Below are positions 4,379 through 53,280 of a stretch of DNA of 64,000 bases, piece by piece. The position numbers and the translations under genes were made by a program. The DNA lies in assembly GCF_964355755.1 (NCBI RefSeq), contig NC_092673.1, positions 6,639,001 through 6,703,000 of the forward strand, in the 5' to 3' direction. Below the pieces are notes generated by a model. It made no database searches, had not been told where the DNA came from, and worked only from the letters and a program-made list of their open reading frames with translations. Origin of the DNA: Antedon mediterranea. Lineage: Eukaryota > Echinodermata > Crinoidea > Comatulida > Antedonidae. Position 1 is the stretch's first letter. Every line of letters begins with the position of its first letter.

Positions 4379-4383
4379 ATGGT
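4379..4383 (+). promoter_or_regulatory. Possible alternative start exon end: ATG followed by a strong splice donor
   Basis: An ATG at 4379-4381 is followed at once by GTAAGT. If spliced to an acceptor at 5416-5417 (ending ttcag), it would supply the initiator methionine and join in frame to the coding sequence that starts 'NLEINPF'. This would change only the first few residues of the FYVE protein relative to the start at 5405. It is a prediction from splice signals only. Confidence 0.5.
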
Positions 4384-5404: not shown

Positions 5405-8400
5405 ATGAATACATTTCAGAATTTAGAAATAAATCCGTTTGAAACGCCGATGGCTCTCTCTCATCCAGAGCCTAATCGCTATCAACTTTTAGACAAGTTG
5501 TTGCAGATAATGGAAGAACAACCAAAAAGTAAGAGCATGTTTATAACCATTAAGTAAGCTTTACTGAATCTTTATTGTATTTTCTAAAACATTTTTTTAT
5601 TGACATTCGTGATTAGGTCTACTAACACCAATCGTGTTCTTAAATGTGCACTAATAAGATAAAATAAGATAAGATAAATCTTTATTGCCATGAACACAAC
5701 AAGGCGAACATGAAATTGGTTTCTTCCCTTCGTTTGTCGCAACTAAAAAGTTTCTTAAAAATTGTGTGGCGTTTTATAAAGCCAAGGAACTGATGAAATC
5801 ATGTTTTATAGTTGTAACTTTTTGTTGGTCTTTTTTCTGGGTCCAGTGAGACAAGATCCGCTTCAAACGGGGCCTTATAATAATGTTTCTTCATTCGTAT
5901 ATTTTGTATACTTATGTCAATTGTCAAAATAATGAAATCAGATGGGTCTATTTATAGCTTAAAGTGAATTAAAACCACAGCATCATGTCGGTGATATCTA
6001 ATAAAGGGAAACCTGCACTCTCCATAAGAGAGTCACTTATTTTGAAAATGACGGACCTATGAAAAGGGTAAAGTGTAAAAATATGCCTTATTGGACGTCT
6101 TCGTTACAATAGACCTTTATATATGGACTTCAGGGGTGACCTACTGTATTACAACCAGAGTGTTAATGTGCAAATTACTATTCTATATAATTGACAAATT
6201 TCCCCATTGGGTGGACATTTTCTAACTGTTCTCCGGGCTTAGTAAAGGCTTTACATAAACATAAACTTTTGTATGCCTATAAATAATGTCTTTAACAACC
6301 TAGTTATATAATTTGTTTTTCTTGCCTAGAATCCAAAGGACGTTTTGCAGGCCTGCGTAGTAGAAATGTAACAACACGACTGGGTCATTGTTTCACAAAC
6401 ACCTGCACAAAAACGTTTATGTTCAATTGCAGTAACCATTGTCGTCTTTGCGAAAACACCTTCTGTGACAAGTGTTCTATGCTCGTATCTCCGGAAACAA
6501 TAATAGGTAATTAAATGTATTTATACAAACATTTATAAAAACAAAATACAAATATATTTTTTGAAATTACGGTACCTATGTTTGTTGCCATTTTGTCGAT
6601 CGCAGGGTGAGGAAAACCTTCTGCTTACAAAAATATAAAGCGCCTTTTCGATATTTTCGAACATTTTTTTTTTCTGATTTCTCAGAAACTGCTTATTTTT
6701 ATGATTTGTTTTGTTTGTACCTACTGAGGTAAATAGCAGAAAGAAAATCCTTGAGTATACCTCCACATTAATAGAGGTATTCAGGGGACATTACCAAAAA
6801 ACGAAATTGTTCGCTTAATATGGGTTTTCGCGGGGAAAAAACAAATGAACCAAAATGAACACTAATTTATCTGGACTCAAGAAATTGGGAAGAGTTAAAA
6901 CTTTGGCAGCCAAGGCATTATTAATGAATGTAAATTTTGGCACAATCCCTTTCTCTTAGGGTTCCCCTGAGTAGGGGCTGGCCGTATAGTATTAAAACAT
7001 AATAATATTGCCCTTAAATATTGTCCCCTTAAGAGAGGTGTCCCAAACGAGGTATATCCTTTATTAAAACATGGTTTTTTGTTAGGCTTTATGTTGGCTA
7101 TTTCTTTGAACAACAGCGCCTCCATTTACTATTATAAACAAATGATTTTTTTATGGACAGCTTCCATGATGATTGGCTACTCCCTGCAGCGCATATGAAC
7201 AAAAATGAAGTGCCTATTTTGGACAGATTTCTGCTAGAGTTTGTGAGCCATTTTTCTTACGGGTAGAGATTGTTTTCTGGTTTGGATAAGGGGTGGGCTA
7301 TTTGTTTGTTACGGAAACTGAATAAACCACGACAAATAAGTTATTTCTCCATACATAAACATTATTATTCTTCCTCTACAGTTCCTCTACACAAATACCA
7401 AGGCCATAAACAATTAAGGAATACTACCATCAAAGTATGTCAGGCTTGTAATGAACGAGTGCAAACAGAGTGGCAGATGTATAGCATAGATCTACGGGAT
7501 GGAATTCTAAGTAGAATACAGGTAGGCCTAAAACAGCTTTAATAAGCACATATGATACATAGGATATACCACTAATGGACCACGTGTTTCCTGCAATCAG
7601 TCAGACAGACACTATAAGCCTCCACAAATATAATGTTGTCATGAGTTTTACTTTTTGTTTAGTCATTGGTTTTCGTTCATGTGGTCCATAGATTACTGTG
7701 TTATTATAGTGGCACTGTTAGCTAAGTCCTTAATTGTTAACGGCGAGGAAGCATGTCCATACTTCGGTTTGGGTTCTGGCATGAACTTACACATTCTCAT
7801 TTTGCCTCGAAAGTTTCGGGTTATTTTTTTTTGCGCTTTACACATTCAAATCTATTAGTCATTATTGATTTAAATGAATGAGCTTTTAAAAGATTTGAAA
7901 AGATCGACGTCGCGAAGGTCTCCAAGCAATCAATTACCGTAGCGCAATTCTGGGTTGTATGTGACTTGGTATGCCTCATTCTTAACCGGTATGCCTCTTT
8001 CTTGGTTGTCCGGTATGCCTCATTCTTGGTTGTGCGGTATGCCTCATTCTTACTCGGTATGCCTCATTCTTGGTTGCCTGGTATGCCTCATTCTTGGTTG
8101 TCCGGTATGCCTCATTCTTGGTTGTCTGGTATGCCTCATTCTTGGTTGTCCGGTATGCCTCATTCTTACCCGGCGGTATGCCTCATTCTTGGTTGCCCGG
8201 TATATGCCTCATTTTTTCCCGGTATGCCTCATTCATGGTTGCACTGTATGCTTCATTTTGCCCGGTATGCCTCATTCTTGGTTGCCCGGTATGCCTCATT
8301 CTTGATTGCCCTGTATGCTTCATTCTTGCCCGGTATGCCTCATTCTTGGTTGCCCTGTATGCTTCATTCTTGCCCAGTATGCCTCATTCTTGGTTGCCCT

Positions 8401-11383
8401 GTATGCTTCATTCTTGCCCAGTATGCCTCATTCTTTCCCGGTATGCCTCATTCTTGGTTGCCCGGTATGTTTCATTCTTTCCCGGTATGCCTCATACTTG
8501 GTTGCCCTGTATGCTTCATTCTTGCCCAGTATGCCTCATTCTTTCCCGGTATGCCTCATTCTTGGTTGCCCGGTATGTCTCATTCTTGGTTGCCCTGTAT
8601 GCTTCATTCTTTCCCGGTATGCCTCATACTTGGTTGTCCTGTATGCTTCATTCTTGCCCAGTATGCCTCATTCTTTCCCGGTATGCCTCATTCTTGGTTG
8701 CCCTGTATGCTTCATTCTTGGCCAGTATGGCCTCATTCTTTCCCGGTATGCCTCATTCTTGGTTGCCCGGTATGTCTCATTCTTGGTTGCCCTGTATGCT
8801 TCATTTCTTTCCCGGTATGTCTCATTCTTGGTTGCCCTGTATGCTTCATTTCTTTCCCGGTATGCCTCATACTTGGTTGCCCTGTATGCCTCATTTTTGG
8901 TTGCCCTGTATGTTTCATTCTTGGTTGACCTGTATGCTTCATTCTTTCCCGGTATGCCTCATACTTGGTTGCCCTGTATGCCTCATTCTTGGTTGCCCTG
9001 TATGTTTCATTCTTGCCCGGTATGCCTCATTCTTGGTTGCCCTGTATGCTTCATTCTTGGTTACCCGGTATGCCTCATTCACGGTTGGCCTGTATGCTTC
9101 ATTCTTGCCCTGTATGCTTCATTCTTGCCCTGTATGCTTCATTCTTGCCCTGTATGCTCCATTCTTGGTTACCCGGTATGCCTCATTCACGGTTGGCCTG
9201 TATGCTTCATTCTTGCCCGATATGTCTTATTCTTGCCCGGTATGCGTTTTTTTTGTGTTTCACGGTTCCATACAAAAAAGTTATTGATTCCCGAGATTAC
9301 TCATAATTTCATTGGGACACAACAAAAGTGGTAAATGAAGCGGTTATATAACTCATTCTCCAATCCAAAGAAGAAGCGTGAACATTTGCTTACTTACCCC
9401 ATCGAGTAAATTGTACTGATCGTCTAAATCTTGAGTCAGGTAAAGCATGGATCTATCCGTGACAGCAGCATTATTTTACCGGCATGAAGAAGAGAATTGA
9501 TATTGCCTAAAAATTGGAAAACAATATGTATCCTTGTTATACTGTATTTCGTTCATTCGTAACATAGTTTAGTCAGTCTCTTCATTCTGTCATATATGTC
9601 ATCACTTCTAATATTTCTAAATAGACATTAGGCCTATATATTAATTTAAAAACAGATCAAACAAATTATGTCTTTTTTAAACCCAGAAACTTGACGACCT
9701 GAAAAAACACGCGGAGTGGAATATCGACACATACAATACTGCAATCAGAGAAGCAAGGTAATAAATACAATTTAAAAAAAACACAGAATTGGTACAATAC
9801 AGAGAATCACATTCATTCAAATTCATTTTAGACATGTATTATCCATAGAATACAATGATATTGCATGTGGTATGTAAGAAACGAAGAAGTTCTTTTGACT
9901 TCCTTCATTGATCAACCAACGCTGACTAAAGCTTGTTTTCATGTCGACGTTATTTCTTTATAACACACCTAGGCACATGCTTGTCATTTGATTGGACAAT
10001 TGTGGGTCAGACCTACATGATATTAAATTTCTTTTATGTAGAGAGTGCCGTGTCGTTATTTCAAAGCAATTTCATAAAAATTAGCTTGATCGTCTGGATT
10101 ATTTTTATTAATTAGAACTTCACAGAAGCGTGGAATTAATTCAGTGAAAGATGAAACGTTATATTTCCACGAGACAAAGCCGAGTAAAACAATACTCATT
10201 ATAAGCACTTATATGGTATTAAATTTTGATTTGTCTCCTTGTCATTGGTTAACTTCGTTTGACGTGTCATGTTCCTCATTTTAACGATTTAGTTAAACAA
10301 TATTAAAATGGCTGTGTAACGCGTAGGTCTGAATATTGCCATTCTTCTTTGCTCTCGCGGCCAAAATTCAATGAATGTTTTTGTTTTTGCTTTTACAGAG
10401 AAGGTACGAGGCACCATAAGCATAAACGGTTACATCAAATGCGCGACCAAATTGATTCAATTCTTGACGAGTATGATAAAACTTTGTAAGTATGTGTAAA
10501 CATTGAAAATCGGTTCCGATAAGGACGGATGGTGACGATAATGTAGACGATTATGGTGACGATAATGGTAATGTTGACGATAATGGTGACGGTGATGATA
10601 ATGGAGATGATAATGGTGACGGCAAATGGTGATGGCGACGATAATGGTGACGGTGCCGATAATGGTTACGGTGACGATAATGGTAACGGTGACGATAATG
10701 TTGACGGTGAAGGTAATGGTGACAGTGACGATAAGGATGAAGGTCACGAAAATAGTGATAGATGACGATTATGGTTACAGTAAAGGTAACGGTGACGATA
10801 ATTGTGACGGTGACGATAATTATGACGGTGACGGTGACGACAATGGTGACGGTGACGATAATTATGACGGTGACGGTGACGACAATGGTGACGGTGCCCC
10901 ATAATGTGACGATAATTGTGACGGTGACGATAATTGTGACGGTGACGATAATGGTGACGGTGACCATAACGGTAGTGATAATATTCATGAAGATCGTGTT
11001 GATAATTGTGTTGATAATAGCGATGGCGATGACATTACCATATGGCAACTGTAGCCATATATACGTGTTTTTAGTCGCAACTGTAGCCATATACATGGCT
11101 ACAGTTGCGACTAAAAACACGATTTGATTACAGATACACGCTGGTTCGTCAACATACAAACAAAATGCATCTACAATACAATGGGGATTTCGACCAATAT
11201 AGAACAGATTTAGATCGACTAAAACGCAATATATATGATGATTTAAGTTTACAAGAGAGAAGTTGTATAAACGTAAGAAGTTGTTTTTCCCGTCTTTGCC
11301 GTTGTTGTTGCTGTTGCTGCTTCAGTAAATCTACAGACTACGATTATATGGACAATAACTATAACTGCAGTACATTGTTATAA
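5405..11383 (+). CDS. FYVE-type zinc finger protein with C-terminal poly-cysteine tract (six exons, 282 aa)
   Basis: Proposed exons are 5405-5528, 6330-6506, 7382-7521, 9687-9757, 10399-10485 and 11134-11383. All junctions are GT-AG, the phases agree throughout, and the 849 nt give 282 residues plus stop. Residues 62-123 form a FYVE-type finger: C62/C67, C79-RL-C82, C87-DK-C90 and C120-QA-C123. The spacing from C79 to C90 is that of classical FYVE domains, and 'KVC' stands where FYVE proteins usually have RVC. The WxxD motif is missing, C62-x4-C67 replaces the usual CxxC, and only NHCR remains of the basic RRHHCR patch. Residues about 148-240 are charged and probably helical. The tail has CRCCCCCC (255-262), a possible S-acylation site, then acidic and tyrosine-rich residues. 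FYVE domains normally bind PI3P on endosomes; membrane targeting here is inferred. The start could instead lie in an upstream exon. AATAAA occurs at 11637 and 12113. I do not recognise the gene. Confidence 0.5.
5650..5720 (-). mobile_element. LINE 3'-tail-like fragment in FYVE intron 1
   Basis: Read on the minus strand, the segment ends in CAATAAAGATTTATCTTATC followed by TTATT-type short repeats, as in the 3' ends of many non-LTR retroelements. No coding part is attached. Confidence is moderate because only the tail is visible. Confidence 0.5.
7968..9246. repeat. 24/20-bp minisatellite in the third intron of the FYVE gene
   Basis: About 1.28 kb of tandem units built on 'GGTATGCCTCATTCTTGG'. 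A 24-bp form carrying TTGGTTGCC alternates with a 20-bp form that lacks the TTGG part, giving a mixed higher-order pattern. Units differ by recurrent single changes (GCC to GCT, CTC to TTC, CGG to CAG). Long open frames cross it on the plus strand, with a shorter one on the minus strand, because the unit has few stops. The array lies wholly between exons ending at 7521 and starting at 9687, so I treat it as intronic DNA and not as protein. Confidence 0.5.
10525..10982. repeat. GGTGACGATAAT minisatellite in the last intron of the FYVE gene
   Basis: About 460 bp of degenerate 6-, 12- and 18-bp units around GGTGACGATAATGGTGAC. It sits between the exons ending at 10485 and starting at 11134. Open frames on both strands are products of the short period, and the translations are low-complexity D/G/N or V/T/I strings. 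Confidence 0.5.
11064..11121. repeat. Perfect 27-bp hairpin next to the last FYVE-gene acceptor
   Basis: The arms 11064-11090 and 11095-11121 are perfect reverse complements around the 4-base loop ATAC. The inner part resembles the ends of the dispersed GACC-core repeat of this window (ccatatacatggct and gcgactaaaaa), so it may be a fused or collapsed copy of that element. The right arm ends 12 bases before the exon that begins at 11134. Confidence 0.5.
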
Positions 11384-24365: not shown

Positions 24366-25160
24366 CGGGTGAGAAAACAAGATGTAGGTTCATAATGTGC
24401 ACTTGTTCAATCAAGGGATAGTTTAAACCCTCCTCATTTAGTGAACCCATGTCAGCCTCAATCATTAAACACAAACTAAATCGCATAAACAGTTGCAGAA
24501 TTTGTCAGAAAATGATAACAAAACAATACGGAAGTAAATAAGGGAAGACAGTCGTTGACTCAATGAGACTGAACCAGTTTCAATTGTCACCTCCGCTTAG
24601 TGGTTTTACATAACGCGACACGAGTTATTTGACCGAAGTTTTTATTTTTCTTGTATGACTTATAACCCATAATACATATTCCATATATTTTTTTTGCAAA
24701 TCATTCTTTACCAAAGTACGAACGACTTACCATTCATACATGAATTAACGCACTGATAAATGAACTAGACTAAAATTCTATGACGTATTTCCACCTGGCG
24801 GTGAACCACGCACATTTTTATGTGCATGTGTATTTTTCTTCAAACGAAAATGTACGGCGGTACACGTAAAGCATGTTCATGACTTGCGCACTATTGAGTA
24901 GACTACCCTACTTGCTTGCCCCAATTCTGTATTATTGTTTTTTTTTATGTTAGCCCACCCGTTGTCATTTCAATTTTTTTGTCTGGAAAAGGTATTTTGT
25001 GAGCTCATTATCATAGATATGAAACGCCATATATGCAAAAATATTTATCTTTTTACTTATATTAATTCGAATGCGGTCTAGAACCTAGACAATTAATTGT
25101 TCGTTCAACGAGTATGACAGACACAATGTTAAATATGTGATTTTTTTTGCAGGATATATA

Positions 25161-26276
25161 ATGGATCTATTTGAAAATACAACTTCTTTCTACTACTACG
25201 ACGACGAGAACGTGACATCAACAACGATTGAGCCATCTGTGGTTACGTGGGCTCCATGGGAACGTGTAATTCAGGTTCTCGTTCTAGGAATATTTGTCGT
25301 CACTGGTACATTTGGAAATACTCTTGTTATACTGTCTGTTATACTTTCTCGTAGATTACGTACAGGAACGAACGTTTTCGTCGTAAATCTAGCCGTTACG
25401 GACTTAGCAACTGTTCTTAATTTACCATGGAATATGTTGGCGTTTTTGAGTGAGGACGAGGGATGGCCGCTCGCACCGGGTGTATGTAGCTTTGCGTCCG
25501 CAATGGCTATTATCTGTATTGTTAGCAGTTTGTATACGCTGGCCTTGATTGCGATCACGAGGTTTGTTGTGATTACGCGTTCGGCGCGGGATTATCGGAA
25601 TATATGTTTATTCCGCACATCTAGTTTGATTGGTCTCCTCGTGTTCGTCTGGAGCATATCAATATTTACTGCGTTGATTCCACGGATGTTTGGAGTAGGC
25701 CAACTTGGATACGACACACGCTACAGCACATGCTCATGGGATTCGTCACATCCCAAGTCTGCCGTTTATAGTTTTATCATTTCTGCTATACTTTATCCCG
25801 TTCCGTTTGTCATCATCATATATTGTTACATACGAGTGTTTACACACATTCGGAAACACGTAAAAACAATGAAATCGGACCTAACTGCATCCGGGCCGCT
25901 CGAACATTCGTCCTCAACCAACGAACCAACGTTAAGGACCATCAACAGAAGTAGACAAGCGTCCACCCTTCATCAATCCACCAGGAAACGGTTAAGTAGG
26001 ACTCAAGTTGAGGTCACCAAGAACTTATTTTACGTCGTAGTTCTGTATGTTGTTTGCGCAACTCCGTATAACGTTTGTCTTCTGTTGCCAGGCGACGGTG
26101 CGATCAAAGCAACCCCGTATGCCGCGCTTTTCTTACTGTGTAATAGTTGTGTAAATCCGCTTGTATACGCCACCAAACATCCGTTTTTCAAAACTGTGTT
26201 CAAAAGCATTTTAACGTGTAAATGTTCAAAAATTCCAGATAAAGCGCACTTTTTACGATCAATAAGAAGATGGTAA
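25161..26276 (+). CDS. Orphan class A (rhodopsin-like) GPCR
   Basis: A single-exon frame of 371 residues with seven hydrophobic segments. Acidic N-terminus with N-glycosylation sites NTT (6-8) and NVT (17-19). TM1 carries GN ('TFGNTLVIL'), TM2 'NLAVTDLA', and TM7 ends in NPLVY. Cysteines before TM3 ('GVCSF') and in the second outer loop ('STCSW') can form the usual disulfide. Two motifs are changed: TM3 ends ITRF instead of DRY, and TM6 has CATP instead of CWxP. The third inner loop is Ser/Thr- and Arg-rich, and the tail has CKC for possible palmitoylation. ATG at 25161 is chosen because 'ttttttttgcag' ends at 25152, a typical acceptor, so an upstream non-coding exon is likely. The overall look is that of melatonin/GPR84/moody-like orphan receptors, but the ligand cannot be told from sequence. 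Confidence 0.5.
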   Translation: MDLFENTTSFYYYDDENVTSTTIEPSVVTWAPWERVIQVLVLGIFVVTGTFGNTLVILSVILSRRLRTGTNVFVVNLAVTDLATVLNLPWNMLAFLSEDEGWPLAPGVCSFASAMAIICIVSSLYTLALIAITRFVVITRSARDYRNICLFRTSSLIGLLVFVWSISIFTALIPRMFGVGQLGYDTRYSTCSWDSSHPKSAVYSFIISAILYPVPFVIIIYCYIRVFTHIRKHVKTMKSDLTASGPLEHSSSTNEPTLRTINRSRQASTLHQSTRKRLSRTQVEVTKNLFYVVVLYVVCATPYNVCLLLPGDGAIKATPYAALFLLCNSCVNPLVYATKHPFFKTVFKSILTCKCSKIPDKAHFLRSIRRW

Positions 26277-27040: not shown

Positions 27041-27049
27041 TTAGTACTA

Positions 27050-28950
27050 TAGTACTATATTTAAAAAGGGCAAAAGAGATCAACCAGCAAATTATAGAGG
27101 CGTATCCTTAATATCCACTTTAGGCAAGGTGTTTTTATACATTATAAGCAATAGATTAAGCAAATGGACAGAAGAAAATGAAATATTACATCAAAAACAG
27201 GGAGGGTTTAGAAAAGATTGTCGTACTATTGATAACATATTTATTTTAGACACAATTGTTAACAAATATCTCTCAAAAAAACGAGGAACTGTGTACATGG
27301 CGTTTATAGATTTAAAACGCGCTTTCGATTCTATTAGACACGATTTCCTTATAAGTAAACTAAGAAAATCTGGTATAAAAGGTAAAATAATCAAAGTTAT
27401 AAAAACAATGTATAGTAAATTAAAAGGGCATGTAAAGGTTGGCAACAAAATTGGAGAATCCTTTAAATGTGAAGTAGGAATACAACAAGGGTCACCTTTA
27501 TCTTCATTATTATTTAATATTTTTATTAATGATATAACTGAGTTATTACATACTGCTGAAAATCGAAACAAAATAAAAATTGATAACATAAATATTAATC
27601 GCCTACTGTATGCAGATGATCTAGTTTTAATCAGTGATACAGTGTACTCATTACAAGATCTTTTAAATAAACTAGCATATTATTGTAATAGGTGGGGATT
27701 GGTAGTTAACATTGACAAAAGTAAAATAATAGTATTTAAAAAAAATGGAAAACTTAAGAACTACGAAAAGTGGAATTATCTTGGTAAAGAAATTGAATTA
27801 GTAAAATCTCTTAAATATCTTGGAGTCACTTTCGATTGTTCAGGAAATTGGGAAAAGGCCAGAAAACAAAATAATACACAGGCTAATAAAGCACTTTTCT
27901 CACTCAAAAATATAATATATCAGAAATATGGACATCTACCAGTGAATATTTGGAACTACTTATTTGATGTTAAAATAAACCCAATTATACTGTATGGTAG
28001 TGAAATATGGGGAAAACTAAACAACAACAAAATTGATGATATTCAAAATAATTTCTGCAGATATGTTTTAGGGGTCGGGAAATCAGCCACAAATGTTTCA
28101 ATTAGAGGAGAATGTGGACGATTCTCTTTATCAATCGAAAGTGTACTCAATGTTATCCGTTATTGGGTAAGACTAGTAAATATGAACGAGGACAAATATG
28201 CGAAGAAATGTTATAAATCTCAACTTCATAAAGCGCAAAATAATAGTAATTGTTGGGTAAGCGATGTAAAACACATGTTATGCTCTATTGGTCATGGAAA
28301 CATATGGTTTTCACAAAATAATATCCTTGATAAATTTTATATAGTTAATAAAATAAAAGAAAGGCTAACCGATATAGAACGCCAATCCTTTCTTGAAAGA
28401 ATAAATATTTCTTCAAAATTAAGATACTATAAAATATTCAAAAACAATTTCGGAGTAGATGGATACTTACTACAGACCCTTGATACTAGATATAAGCGAG
28501 CTTTAAGTCAACTAAGACTGGGCACACTTCAACTAGAGGTAGAAAGGGGAATATGGAAAAGAATAGAGCGCAGCAATAGGTTATGTAAAATATGTATTGT
28601 AATATAAATGAAGTTGAAGATGAATATCATTTTGTTACAGTTTGCTCTCGTTACAAGGAAATCAGAAAAAAATGTATACCTTCTTTATTTTTTGAAAATC
28701 CAAATACTTTTAAATTCTGTCGTTTAATGTCATCACAGGATCCAATAATTATTGATAATCTATCTAAATATATTTATCATGCTTATAAGTTAAGATATAT
28801 GTTTTGCTTAAAGAACGAAATTAATTAATTCATTTATCTTGTGACCATAAATTGCTTTATTTTTCAATGTAATTATTATTTTGTTAATTACTAGGGGCCA
28901 GAGGCCTAAAGTAAATAAAGTCAGGCGATAAGCCTGAATGAATGAATAGT
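27050..28950 (+). mobile_element. 5'-truncated LINE (non-LTR retrotransposon)
   Basis: The element enters within the reverse transcriptase ('NYRGVSL' block at about 27088) and has no endonuclease region. It ends in a short 3' UTR with AATAAAG and TGAA repeats at about 28915-28948. 5' truncation and a short-repeat tail are typical of target-primed insertions. A duplicated AGTACTAT-type word (27045-27060) sits at the 5' junction. Confidence 0.5.
27057..28828 (+). pseudogene. LINE reverse transcriptase with C-terminal zinc-knuckle-like motif, frameshifted
   Basis: The translation carries RT blocks in order: 'NYRGVSL', 'QGGFRK', 'FIDLKRAFDSI', 'GIQQGSPLSSLLFN' and the catalytic 'YADD' ('LLYADDLVLI', about 27610). 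After the RT comes the LINE C-terminal region, ending with 'RLCKIC' and, in another frame from about 28592, 'DEYHFVTVC', the Cys/His motif that usually follows. The break between these two pieces near 28595-28607 is a frameshift. The 5' end, including any endonuclease, is missing. The clade is probably in the Jockey superfamily (CR1/L2-like), but this is tentative. The copy is dead, though its long open frame suggests it is fairly young. Confidence 0.5.
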
Positions 28951-38069: not shown

Positions 38070-41000
38070 TTATACTTTCTGTTTCATAGTTTTCCTCTTT
38101 TTTTTCCGACAAATTGCAAGATATATAAATACACAAATAATTATACAGACGCTATACAATAGGACACACATGCTAACATCCATATTTGTTACATTGTAAA
38201 AATTGCTAGACTTATATTTTAGCCTATCGTTAGCAAGCCGCACCTCTAGCTGCTTTTCTAGTTCTCTTTTCATAACCTCTTGTTTCAATTTTATATCACC
38301 TAAGTCTAAAAACCTTTCCGGTGGATCCTTCTCTATAAACTTGGGAATTTTTCCTTGAGGAATCAACCGGTCAAAGACAATATTCCGGATGCTGTAATAT
38401 TCCTTCAGGAATCTAAGGACAGCCTTTTTATCCCATTCATCCTCATGGCCTTTTCCTAGACGGCAGGTTTGACAGAGATCCGTTGATGGGAACTGGATCT
38501 TGGGATGAGCTGGATCTTCCGACATGTCTCCTTTCAGTCGCAGGTTGACACTATTGTGGATTTTCCAGAGGTATAGGATGGCAGTGTCGTATGAAGTGAC
38601 TGTTGAAGACATCAGTTTTGATTCTTTAGCAAAGTTTTTAACACATTCTTTGCAGGTGAAGAATTCTTGTATGTAGCCTTTCATAGCTTGCAAGACTTCT
38701 TGTGAATTGCCAGTTGGATCTAATAATAATAAAAGGAATAATACATTGAATAAACTAAAATATTCTATAGAAAGAAAAAACAAACAGGGGCCTACTACAA
38801 GCCTGTCGGCTCGAAAACCCAAACTATCATCAGAGATCAGCAGAAGAAGTGATGCATAACTAGCCTAGCTCACCTAAAACCTCTTACATACATGTTATAT
38901 CTTTAGCCTATGAAGAATAACAGAATAGCACATTCACAACATTAATTTGTGAAAATGCAGTAATTATTAAGTCTGTTTACTGAATAAAAATAAATTCTTG
39001 CAAGGACAAATTTTTCTTCCATTTAAATTTATGTTGACACCACAGTTTTTTGTAGCAATGATTATATTATATTATTCAAGTTCAAGTTCAAGTTCAAAAA
39101 ACATTTATTTATTCAACAATGGCATTATACAGTATAATATAATTATAGGTGTGTACATAAATGAAAACATAGTAATAAGCCATCATTTTGGGTCTTCTCT
39201 AGAAGACTGGGTGATCTCTTCAGTCACAGACTGGTCTCACAGTGGCTGTGATGTACTAGTACACCGGGGTAATGCCCTACTCATCTTGAAAGATGTACTA
39301 GGTTCTTTAAAGTGCACATGAGGTAGATGTGTACACTGGACCTACAATTTATAGTTCCTTATCAGAGAAGACTCGTTCTTCCACCAGAACCATGGAGCGA
39401 GTGAGCCTTGAACCTTTGATGATGTTATGGTTACGTAATTACAGTTCCACTGTCTTAACCGCTCGACCAGTCACTCGCTAGATACATTAAAAAGTAAAGA
39501 AGATTCAAATATGTCCTCACTTTGCTTATTAATCTTTGCAGCACTGACGGTGAGTGTATGAAACAGAGTCCATAAGCTACAAGGGTAGCCTCTGTATCTA
39601 GGTGAGCTGCCTAGACATCCTTCCCACTTCACTACATGCGGTAAAACAGCTTTAGAATCCTTGAGAAAAAAAAAGTGAACCGATTGTAATATTAGCAACT
39701 ATTTGAAGAAACGTGCTTGATACAAGTTTTTCTGAAGTTAGAAATTGCAAGGAATTAGAAAAAAAAAAGGGTTTTTGTAAATGAATTGGAAAATTGGATG
39801 TTTACACTGGACCTCCAACTTTAAGTCCTTATCTGAGCAGACGATGTTCCGTCAACATAAATGGATTTATGCACCAGGACAGGAAACGCTGGATGACGGT
39901 ATTTCACACTAAGCCCTGGCTACTTTTGGACTGCGTATGCCCCAATCTCCCGTCCACAATTTTCTTGGGACAATAAACTATATTATTTGTTCTCGCCTCA
40001 AAATGAAAAAAAAAACCCTATTATTCTCAAATATCTAATTTGATTTTGGATTTTGTAACATTATATAATTACTTAATGTTTTGTTTACAAAAATGAACAT
40101 AAAACTGATTTGTGGAGGGTCAACAGCACAATAATGGGATGGTTATTTGCTGATCGCTCCAAAGAACACAGACGCTCTGTTCACCACCTTCCTCTCGTTC
40201 TGATGTGATTGAAGAGAGTCTCAAACTTGTGCCAAAAGTGTGGTGTAGTGCGAGTGGCTTGGCCACTTAACTCGACAGAAATCATGAGAATGCATATTAT
40301 GCAAATTTTTCTATTCTAAAGAATACTCACTTTTTCTGGATCATAGTTTTCATTCACAAAGTCCAACCACTCGTCAGATGTGATCGACGGACGTTTTTGA
40401 TCCATTAACCAAAAGTCAAGGCTCTCTAAAAACGAGCTTATTTGACTTCTGCCAGGAAAATACTAAACAAAAGAAGAAAAATATGTTTGTATTGTAAAAC
40501 AATGTAGGTCTCAGTAGGTATTTACACATCTGAGAAAAGCTGAAAAAATGAAATGAAATGTTAAAAAAATATTGTAATGACCATTATTGTACAGGGACAA
40601 AAAGACTACACACTTTTAAATTTCAGTAACAAGTAAAGTTAACAACATACAGTATTATACAAATAATGAATGTTTATGAGTGTAATGGTACAAATAATGG
40701 CATTAGGTGAATGATGAAATGGATATATCACCAAGGCGAAGCCAAGTTGATATTAAACCTTTCATCATTCACCAAATTTTCCAAAAATAAATTATTAATA
40801 TTATATAAAATTGTCTGACAAAATAAAAGTGTGTTTGAAAAGCCTTTAATAAAGTTATAAATCACTGCAAATGACAGAGTATAGTTCCAATGGCCTCAGA
40901 GTATGAAATTGTGAATATTCTGATTGCATTATCAATGAAATTTACCAAAACATTACGTCCAAATTCAGCCTAAGGGGGTGGGATGATAGCACACACAAAT

Positions 41001-50000: not shown

Positions 50001-53000
50001 TAATTTAATTCCTATAATACTATAAAATACTATTTTACCAACCTTACTGTAACTATCTACTGGAATTATAATCAAAAAGCCTAGTAGTATAATCAAAATG
50101 TTATGATTGCTATAATGAAGTTGGCCACGTCCTATCCTCTCCATGTTCAAGCTGTTAGTGTTAGCTAAATGTTTTATTACAAAAACCGTACAATTACACA
50201 GATTATAACCTTGAGGAAAATACATACAATCAATACGAATTAATCAAATTGCGCATTTGTACTATTTAAAGTTAAATTAAACAGGTAGGACTTACTGTAT
50301 CCAGTATTCAAATTAGGTACTGTCATTATTATCAGGGAGTTATTTTACAACTCTCTCCTATTATTATTAGTGGCCAATCTTCTTATTTAAATAAATTAGC
50401 ATATAATTAGTGTGATTAATGTACCAGTAAAACGTGTAAATGTTTCATTTATAAATTAAATAGTCATGTATTTAAATAAGCTACAAAAATGAATTACTTG
50501 GGACTGAACCCCAAAAAAATCCAGAAAGGAAAATAATAAAAAAAATTGTGTATGCTATAACAAACAAAGCAATTTTAGTTTGCCAAGTACAGTATAATAA
50601 TAATATACTATTCATAATTACTATGGTTAGGAGAAATTTACCATGGTTACTCTCAATATCAAACACTAATAACAACCAACCTATTATAATAATGGAAGTC
50701 TCTGTATTGTAATGTTATATTATTCCAATGCTAATTTCAATACCATATTGGTATTTGACACATTTGACAGAGAACAAACAACATTTACTACATTTACTAA
50801 GCAAGATATTATTTAATGTAATTATTCTATAAACCTTTTTTTTTTCAAACCACCTCATATATTAATTTACACAATTATACTTAAATACAGTAGAACGGTA
50901 AGCTTCCTTTTTTCTAAACTTCACTGGCTTTATTAAGTATAGTACAACAACCCATCAACTATAAAATGTCAACCTTGATTTAGAGATGTATTCATGGCCC
51001 TACTCCTACTTATTATTATTTCTCTTTATGTTCCATCAGGTCCTGGACTTATTTAAGTGTTATCAACTCAAAAAACTCACTTTATATCAGACCCAAAAGG
51101 TCTTTTTTGCTCAAGCACATTGATCTAGAAGTGTCTTCCATTTCACATACAGTACAAGTCTTTAAAATTTAAGTTTTTTCTTAAAACATACATTTGTTCA
51201 AAATTAATTCTTTAAAACACAGCCAGTTTATAAGCGCTTTATAAATTCTTGGTATTATTAATATTAATACGAGACACTCATTATCAAAGGAAATCCCAAT
51301 CAAAGGGGAGACTGATGTAAAGTTAACAATGCGCAACGCCGAAATAGGCCTATTAATGGTTTAACACTATGGTCAACCACTATTCAGGTAACAAAGTGTA
51401 AGGCACTTCGTTAGGACCGAGGGTAGGGGCTCTAAATGTATAACTGGTTTTTTTTTTCCATAGTTTCAGTTGCCAATATTTTACTTTTTTCAGAACAGAA
51501 AAGAACTGAGAATACAGTACAACTACAACTAATAATTTTGAATTGCATCAGTTAGATGTTTCCATAAGCGTTATTAGTTCCCAACTACGAATCGCATTGT
51601 GGGAAGCACAACTACTGTAGTTACTGTACCATCATTTCCAGTGTTGACATTAGTGATCACTCACTGATTCTGTTCAGTTCCTTTGAGTTGCCCTCACGTG
51701 CAACAAGTTCTTTACAGTTCTAACCCTTAAGACTTTAGGTGAGTGATCCCACTTTCATGCCTAAATAAGGCATGAAATTTGAAGAACATATATTTTAACT
51801 TAATTAAATATCTTACCAGAGAATTTTGTGACAATAATAAACATTTTCTAAAAAAGCATCTGAATTAATTGTTTCTGTGTTACCTTCAATGTAGGATATC
51901 CTTCTACTTTGAACGATCGGCAAACATTGAAATTCTGTTGTATAGCACAATCCATGCTGGCTACACCTATTACACTCTTCCATGCTATGGAAAGGGAAAT
52001 TGAGACAAATATTTAGTCATTCAGTATTATTCCATATTTATTCGAATAAAGCCAAGACGACTTTGAAAAATCCCATACTCCTAGCACATCTTTTGGAATA
52101 AACTCCCCCCGACATACCCCTCAAATAAACGCCCTGGCCGTTTTATGCAAATACATGCTCCACCAAATGATACTGTATTATCAGGGGGCCTGGGGCTAGA
52201 CCTAGCAATATAATAACGGCCGGGCGACAATGTCGATGCTGTAGTAATAGAGCAAGATCATGTGGTTGGTGGAGGTTACATAAATAAAGCGTTTAAACAT
52301 GCACTCAATCTCAAATATTATTATTATTTCATTATAAAACATTATACCCTACAGTAGAAATATGTTGATAGCCAAATTAGAAGTAAAGGAATTATAATTA
52401 AATGTTGGAAATTGTGTTGCGTCTAGTTCATTCGACCATAGTTAGGCCTACTATAATATGAGGGTTTAATTTTTATTCCAATGGCCTATTTAGGCCTATA
52501 TTTTTTAATAAACGTTGTTTCCAGATGGTGACCATAAACAAAAAGCAAATGCGAACAATAAAGGGGCCCTCAAATACTATGATTTAGACAATAGGCCTAG
52601 CCCCAGGTCTGAGTCACAGAAATCAGCGCACACGTGCAGCTGGCCCCAGCCTGGCAAACAAACTCATATACGTACCGAGGCTATAGGTTATAGGCCTAGC
52701 ATGGTTATAAACTTATACTAGGCCTAGGCCCTAGGCCTAACTATAGTACGTACGTTGGCCTCTAGTAGAGTAGTAGCCGTAGGCCTCTTTTTTCATATTT
52801 AGAGGCATCCAAATAATCAGGTGTTATATGTTACCATGTTCACCCATTTAAATTGGTAATCAACTTATTAGTAATAGGCAATATACTATTTGACATATGC
52901 TAGGCTAGGCCTACACCTAGGCCTAGTATGCCCTCTTTAGACCAAAGTTCACGATCGGAGACAAACCTTTTAAGTCCAGTGCCAGCTGTTTGTACGTTGG

Positions 53001-53216
53001 AGCAAAATGGATACAGTGACCGCACCAGCTAGAATAAAACTCAACTATCCAACAGTTTCCACTATTAAAAATTGTCTTTGAAATAGTTCCATTATCTAGC
53101 TGTACAACAAAATCAAGAGAATCGTACAAAGACTGTGGAATGTTACCAGAATGAATAATTAAAAGTTGACAATTTATCAAAACGACGAGCAAAAACAACT
53201 TCATGTACGCTGCCAT
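38070..53216 (-). CDS. QSOX: Quiescin sulfhydryl oxidase (QSOX), 12 exons, 722 aa
   Basis: Exons on the minus strand: 53216-52967, 51984-51884, 48021-47976, 45989-45887, 45713-45623, 45074-44929, 44035-43776, 42203-42083, 41179-41050, 40462-40331, 39659-39521, 38719-38070. Junctions are GT-AG, phases agree, and 2169 nt give 722 residues, close to vertebrate QSOX. The enzyme puts disulfides into secreted proteins, using FAD and O2, in the Golgi or outside the cell. Seen: a signal peptide (1-23), thioredoxin active site C65-GH-C68, a second thioredoxin-like region, a charged linker (about 260-332), a helical region, then the Erv/ALR domain with 'YPCSLW..FH' (485-494), redox pair C529-KE-C532, FAD motif 'LWKIHNSVN' (557-565) and C589-QT-C592. 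A membrane segment (690-710) and a lysine/arginine tail follow. Start: ATG in 'CAACATGGC', directly before the signal peptide. QSOX1 versus QSOX2 cannot be assigned. Confidence 0.5.
39075..39482 (-). mobile_element. tRNA-derived SINE in a QSOX intron
   Basis: On the minus strand the head begins with 'AGCGAGTGACTGGTCGAGCG', whose TGGTCGAGCGG is a box A of Ser/Leu-tRNA type, followed by GGTTCAAGGCTC as box B. The first and last 8 bases of the head (AGCGAGTG / CACTCGCT) still pair. A body of about 300 bp follows, and the 3' end is a GAACTT repeat next to an A-rich stretch. The anticodon arm is not preserved, so it is a SINE and not a functional tRNA gene. It lies between QSOX exons 11 and 12. 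Confidence 0.5.
39795..39976 (-). mobile_element. Partial SINE body related to the one at 39.1-39.5 kb
   Basis: 'acactggacctccaacttta' and 'gtccttatctgagcagacga' match the body of the neighbouring SINE ('acactggacctacaattta', 'ccttatcagagaagac') in the same orientation. The tRNA-like head is missing. Confidence 0.5.
41209..41343. mobile_element. Inverted-repeat element (TCTGTCTACAC family) in a QSOX intron
   Basis: It runs from 'aaggctcagtctacgctttc' to 'tgatagtgtagacagagctt', imperfect inverted ends of about 22 bp. The interior 'atggtagtgatatgacatca' is itself followed by an inverse-like 'tgatgtc' region. It lies 30 bases from QSOX exon 9. Confidence 0.5.
42520..43775. other. QSOX intron 7 (part), with one short plus-strand frame
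   Basis: AT-rich intron sequence. Only the 58-codon frame at 43180-43356 stands out. Confidence 0.5.
43180..43356 (+). CDS. Short protein-like frame inside a QSOX intron, uncertain
   Basis: Fifty-eight codons from ATG to TAA, opposite in strand to QSOX. The translation is unlike the low-complexity frames nearby: amphipathic, with 'EIDAKLQSIIVKL', 'EFTFDELLQARKVIFEA' and a basic end 'KCKRGKC'. A helix-then-acidic-patch layout with 'F..eEl..A+..lfe' recalls small N-terminal regions of some invertebrate transposable-element proteins, but I cannot name a family. It may be a relic of an element, or chance. Confidence 0.5.
   Translation: MDEIDAKLQSIIVKLKDTPSIHVKTNLISEFTFDELLQARKVIFEAAKCKRGKCQWIV
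46207..46305. mobile_element. Short degenerate palindromic element
   Basis: 'gttttgttcccactaggatg' to 'catcctagtgtgaaccaagc' forms inverted ends like those of the 34401 element. The interior keeps only 'acgtatgcgcaacacaaagt'. Confidence 0.5.
47086..47478. repeat. 75-bp tandem repeat in a QSOX intron
   Basis: About five units containing 'gattcgatagtatgtaaatg', 'agatataaagattcggcaat' and 'accgtacgtaaattatt', with few differences. One unit lacks 'atagt'. A minus-strand frame crosses it only because the period is a multiple of three. Confidence 0.5.
48130..48545 (+). mobile_element. 5S-rRNA-derived SINE in a QSOX intron
   Basis: Bases about 48240-48308 match the 3' half of eukaryotic 5S rRNA: 'gacgaagttaag', 'cattgggcccggttgctttc' and the polymerase III box C 'ttggatgggagacc', followed by 'atctggaaatat' (5S: gcctgggaatac). 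The 5' half of 5S is barely recognisable. A body of about 230 bp follows and ends near 'ggataaataaattta'. The 5S likeness is plain; the exact element limits are estimated. Confidence 0.5.
48550..51880. other. QSOX intron 2 (part): AT-rich
   Basis: One GACC-core repeat at 49705-49808 is listed separately. No coding signal or other element was recognised. Confidence 0.5.
49705..49808 (+). repeat. Dispersed GACC-core repeat, nearly full but short core
   Basis: 'aaacaaggccattacatgg', 'ttgcagtcgcgtgctcaaat', 'gttagtgattaccgaccta', 'gacatagtgacctgtggag' and the ending hairpin 'gtcgcgtttgcacgcgac' plus TAAAAAC. The ends are complete, so it shows the length of the family, about 105 bp without core expansion. 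Confidence 0.5.
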
Positions 53217-53280
53217 GTTGGAACAATTGACGTTTCTATTTTTCTTATAGGACGCCCTCTATAAAGTAACCTTTTTTTGA
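53217..53280 (-). promoter_or_regulatory. Putative QSOX promoter and 5' UTR
   Basis: On the minus strand two TATA-like words (ACTTTATAGAG and CCTATAAGAAA) lie within about 60 bases of the QSOX ATG. No transcription start can be fixed from sequence alone. Confidence 0.5.

Follow-up and report, generated by a model that had tools for sequence, protein, structure and literature searches.

Tandem FYVE-like proteins with an N-terminal NPF motif and a cysteine-rich tail in the crinoid Antedon mediterranea: candidate membrane adaptors

How would a protein hold on to membranes if its FYVE-like finger has lost much of the lipid-reading signature and its tail carries a run of cysteines? Canonical FYVE domains read PI3P. 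The question is raised by a gene near one end of a 64,000-nucleotide stretch of the A. mediterranea genome (C4:6639001-6703000, here called the window), which a first-pass annotation of the letters described as an uncatalogued FYVE-type protein. The gene structure, the kinship to FYVE, the conserved NPF motif, the in-frame cysteine run in two copies and the purifying selection are established. The reading that we prefer on these grounds, with a probability of roughly one in two, is that the gene encodes an endosomal adaptor that would combine a FYVE-like finger, an S-acylated cysteine string and an EH-binding motif.

The gene and its tandem relatives

The gene model of the first-pass annotation largely holds: its six exons (5405-5528 and the five later exons of Table 1, all on the plus strand) were rebuilt into a closed frame of 282 residues from the ATG at 5405, and the five introns are all GT-AG with phases that agree. 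The gene is not alone. A search of the whole genome (354 Mb, 18 contigs) disclosed four tandem copies on the same strand, named A to D, of which D is the window gene, and a single-copy gene is thus rejected. With D as the query, 19 of 20 matches fall within one 65 kb stretch of contig C4, and the other (C5:15773157, E 2.1) is weak and was taken as a chance match; with B as the query, all 20 matches fall within that stretch. Among the viral contigs, 243 stretches fit a pattern, and 0 relatives were found among them.

Table 1. Features of the window gene (window positions) and of the four tandem copies (contig C4 positions unless marked)
Feature	Position	Strand	Content
Candidate start ATG before GTAAGT donor	4379..4381	+	Would close a mostly untranslated first exon
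Homologous exon 1	5420..5528	+	Earlier exon 1 shortened by 15 bases at its 5′ end; encodes E-I-N-P-F-E-T
NPF codons, then Glu	5432..5440	+	N5 P6 F7 E8 T9
Second homologous exon	6330..6506	+	First six FYVE ligands, CX4C...HCRLC...CDKC
Third homologous exon	7382..7521	+	KVCQAC, the final FYVE pair, then the beginning of the helix-like region
Fourth homologous exon	9687..9757	+	Pro-free charged region
Fifth homologous exon	10399..10485	+	KRLHQMRDQIDSILDEYDKTL; of all exons, most similar to its A and B counterparts
Last exon with stop	11134..11383	+	YRTDLDRLK segment and Cys tail
Copy A	6585574-6588244	same as B, C, D	Five homologous exons
Copy B	6626543-6633404	same as A, C, D	Six homologous exons; 261-residue frame before stop
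Copy C	6637149-6638600 (L009:1650-3101)	same as A, B, D	180-residue frame before stop
Copy D (window gene)	window 5420-11383	+	Six homologous exons

Copy B, which ends 11.0 kb upstream of D, has all six exons of D with the same intron phases, those of the first homologous exon included. The fourth homologous exon has 71 bases in D and B and is 15 bases shorter in A. The protein encoded by the fifth is 76.7% identical in D to that of A and to that of B, and A and B are identical there at 87 of 87 bases. The last exon of A was not found in the genome search, where a missing match is not proof of absence. In copy C, the third homologous exon continues straight into the tail, so that this copy lacks the helical region.

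In pairwise codon models restricted to gap-free codons, omega is significantly below 1 in each comparison: 0.288 for D and B (253 codons, p 5.8e-10), 0.087 for A and B (187 codons, p 2.2e-4), and, for D and C, 0.246 (174 codons, p 3.3e-9). The last value is rough, since the codons are near saturation (dS 1.9) and the middle of C is loosely aligned. The last exon alone gives 0.161 for D and B (68 codons, p 5.2e-4). A and B are identical at 497 of 507 bases in four exons, the fourth homologous exon with its 15-base difference being excluded, vs 1565 of 1690 neighbouring non-exon bases (Fisher p 1.4e-6). By these comparisons the exons of D are real, the gene model has comparative evidence, and D and B evolve under purifying selection. 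Gene decay, or an error in the gene model, is a very unlikely explanation of the locus: the missing match for A's last exon, the altered ATG/donor site of A (see below), the loss of the helical region in C and a 5′ end that is unsettled in all copies would fit decay, but D and B are closed six-exon frames under selection.

The start of translation is the part of the first-pass model that is doubted. The ATG at 5405 is inside ATGAATACATTTCAG followed by AATTTAG, which resembles a splice acceptor, and the blastn homology of D begins within this acceptor, at 5413 against A and B and at 5410 against C; the ATG thus probably lies in the acceptor. A start at the upstream ATG/GTAAGT site of Table 1 is likelier, though unproven. 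It would alter the first residues only, MNLEINPFET replacing MNTFQNLEINPFET, and would give 278 residues from seven exons. Copy B has ATG/GTAAGC at L008:475, about 0.57 kb 5′ of its first homologous exon; the site is altered in A, and none was found in C. The probability of meeting the 8-mer ATG/GTAAG by chance is 0.037 in D (1920 bp) and 0.0195 in B (1043 bp), and local alignment of the upstream stretches of D and B scores 19.0, which is not above shuffles (best 20.5 in 200). Reading back from the start of homology, copy A runs into a stop after 23 codons without passing an ATG and therefore requires an upstream start. In B, the frame stays open as far as an ATG 23 codons upstream, so that B alone would not require another upstream exon. 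The acceptor of C contains a TAG in frame, and this copy therefore also requires an upstream start unless it begins at Met 8, its first downstream Met, in which case its NPF would stay untranslated; the first downstream Met in A and B is residue 88.

The introns and flanks of D carry several repeats. The intron after 7521 holds a minisatellite (7986-9215) in which a 24-base unit, CCGGTATGCCTCATTCTTGGTTGC, is repeated about 55 times; this array alone leaves long open frames. The intron preceding the last exon holds a degenerate GGTGACGATAATGGTAAC repeat (10555-10974) and an inverted repeat around tagccatatacatggcta (11040-11125) that ends immediately 5′ of the last-exon acceptor; ggccatatacatggctgcagtcgcg-like words, similar to this inverted repeat, were seen by eye at about 3495 and 13338. 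Elsewhere in the window are a rhodopsin-family GPCR in a single open frame (25089-26273, Pfam 7tm_1 E 3.6e-42), a reverse transcriptase open frame (27045-28604, RVT_1 E 5.8e-39) that presumably belongs to a retroelement, and, on the minus strand between 38073 and 53258, a thioredoxin frame (52926-53258) and an Erv1/Alr frame (38073-38864), which we take to be perhaps one QSOX-like gene.

The FYVE-like finger

FYVE (PF01363) is the best Pfam hit in all four copies, with 31.0 bits in A, 31.4 in B, 26.7 in D and 19.7 in C, and it is the sole family above its cut-off in the Pfam scan of the copies. The profile search proposed at first pass therefore points to FYVE. Against the curated cut-off, 27.8 bits, A and B score above, C scores below and D itself falls 1.1 bits short. 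In an exon-by-exon scan of the genome with the same model, which returned 27 matches, A is barely included (27.8 bits) and D is absent. Together, the profile matches support FYVE kinship of the four copies. Among PDB sequences, the profile search (best E 0.13) and the sequence search both gave no significant match. The nearest sequence by phmmer is the FYVE domain of protrudin (ZFYVE27; E 0.11, not significant), which, in the alignment obtained, likewise is without the RRHHCR form. Protrudin has membrane segments, and nothing resembling these matched in D.

The eight FYVE cysteines reported at first pass, the predicted zinc ligands, are present in D in order. All eight are Cys in D, B and A, while C has His at the sixth position (CNKH in place of CDKC), as does the Vps27 sequence in the alignment from the PDB profile search. 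The spacing claimed for C79 to C90 is also as described, HCRLC-x4-CDKC giving CX2CX4CX2C. The first ligand pair, in all four copies, is CX4C and not the canonical CX2C.

The canonical FYVE motifs, in the available text of PMC7431699, are WxxD, R+HHC+xCG and RVC. The absence of WxxD from D, noted at first pass, follows from the lack of any Trp ahead of the first Cys pair and extends to all four copies: C has no Trp there either, and A and B have WTKR 15 residues before the pair, which is not WxxD. The basic patch is reduced, as claimed, to SNHCRLCEN in D and likewise in C, and reads PGHHCRLCKN in A and B; none of these matches R+HHC+xCG, and the leading basic residues are lost in every copy. 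In place of RVC there is KVC in D, B and C and KAC in A. Since WxxD is gone, the basic patch is reduced and RVC has become KVC or KAC, PI3P binding by the finger is doubtful.

A finger with so degenerate a lipid motif could be a protein-binding zinc module with no lipid role, the tail cysteines binding metal or forming disulphides, and the FYVE-like domain of Rubicon has been reported not to bind PI3P (PMC7431699, in the part available). We regard this as unlikely, since no signal peptide is seen by eye at the model N-terminus, although an upstream exon outside the model might supply one. The tail also speaks against it, since its cysteines are clustered beside Phe and Arg and resemble acylated strings.

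The N-terminal NPF and the middle region

All four copies share an unchanged NPFET close to the N-terminus, so that NPF is followed by an acidic residue (NPFE), as expected of an EH-domain ligand, in each of them. NPF is a short motif, which weighs against reading it as an EH-binding site. In Rabenosyn-5, the NPF motifs come after the FYVE domain. The EH domain of EHD1 binds NPF, especially with negative residues directly after it, and Rabenosyn-5, an NPF and FYVE protein, is required for the recruitment of EHD1 (PMC7511005, available sections). D resembles Rabenosyn-5 in having a FYVE-type finger with NPF, which in Rabenosyn-5 serves EHD proteins, but differs in that Rabenosyn-5 has five NPF motifs, none of them in residues 1-263 (same sections of PMC7511005), whereas D has one, before a degenerate FYVE.

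Between the finger and the tail lie 107 residues, coded from about 7495 to about 11269, with no Pro and with 43% charged residues when His is counted. The best heptad window fills six of eight core places. These features would fit a helix; no Pfam model above its cut-off covers this region. The last exon folded alone gives a poor mean pLDDT of 42.6 and so speaks neither for nor against a helix.

The cysteine tail and membrane attachment

The CRCCCCCC reported near the C-terminus is in frame at 11297-11320 (+). Its (TGY)6 core (11303-11320) is the single occurrence in the window and did not arise in any of 100 dinucleotide shuffles. Since the Cys codons are a mixture of TGT and TGC in D and in B, the run is not a fresh pure repeat, and this, with the shuffles, rejects a chance origin as well. 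The first-pass annotation would have given up the string if orthologues had it out of frame or missing. Among the paralogues, B has seven Cys in frame (CRCFYCCCCCCC), C has RCFSRLYRCC, in which the string is reduced to RCC, and the last exon of A, as noted, gave no match; the string is thus in frame in two copies, but a long one is not common to all.

It is possible to read the same data with the finger still binding PI3P as the main anchor and the string as a slight lengthening of a stretch of TGY codons. HCR is kept in all four copies, extended to HHCR in A and B; three of the four have KVC for RVC, and the length of the run varies (six in D, seven in B, two in C). We consider this improbable, because every copy is without WxxD and without the leading basic residues, the TGT and TGC codons are mixed and the omega of the last exon is low. 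Lipid attachment at the Cys run is plausible.

Several known proteins offer parallels. DNAJC5, or cysteine-string protein alpha, is a J-domain protein. Its cysteine-string domain is palmitoylated (PMC6897512, as far as available), and D would share this acylation; outside the string, D and DNAJC5 do not match. RFFL and RNF34 (CARP2 and CARP1) join a FYVE-like finger to a cysteine-based membrane hold, and a Cys5/Cys6-to-Ala variant of RFFL shifts from vesicles to the cytosol (PMC12211564, available portion). By analogy, RFFL would be a partial precedent for a FYVE-like finger with cysteine anchoring, and in D the hold would be by acylation. Unlike D, the two carry these Cys at residues 5 and 6 and contain a RING domain; no RING is among the Pfam hits listed for D. 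In the Rheb proteins, FYVE and lipid anchors are combined or swapped between paralogues, with acylation predicted (PMC5869587, accessible text); D is like them in pairing the two, and unlike them in that they are protist GTPases. No FYVE protein carrying a cysteine string at its C-terminus was met in the open-licence literature that was available.

In the adaptor reading that we prefer, the four copies would be membrane adaptors of the cytosol, forming a small family in tandem. Their finger would be a divergent FYVE that folds on two zinc ions and by itself probably binds PI3P weakly or not at all, while S-acylation of the C-terminal string would keep the protein stably on the membrane. The charged middle, free of Pro, would be helical and may pair, and the N-terminal NPF-E site would bring EH-domain proteins of the EHD or Eps15 type to endosomes. 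Since there are four neighbouring copies, two of them with a cysteine string, D probably is a genuine membrane adaptor, from a family that has no name.

A further reading, which we offer as tentative, is that this is an unnamed animal family shifting its anchorage from PI3P reading to the cysteine string, with copies A to D at different stages. A and B retain more of the basic patch, D retains less and has the string, and C is without the helical part and has lost most of the string; B, whose patch is better kept and whose string is the longest, fits a state in which both are used together. If true, a swap in the mode of attachment would be evolving within one tandem cluster. A family that unites a conserved NPF-E, a degenerate FYVE and a string of cysteines would be a compact natural test of lipid reading traded for acylation in a coincidence-detecting endosomal adaptor, and four copies in different states would permit direct comparison.
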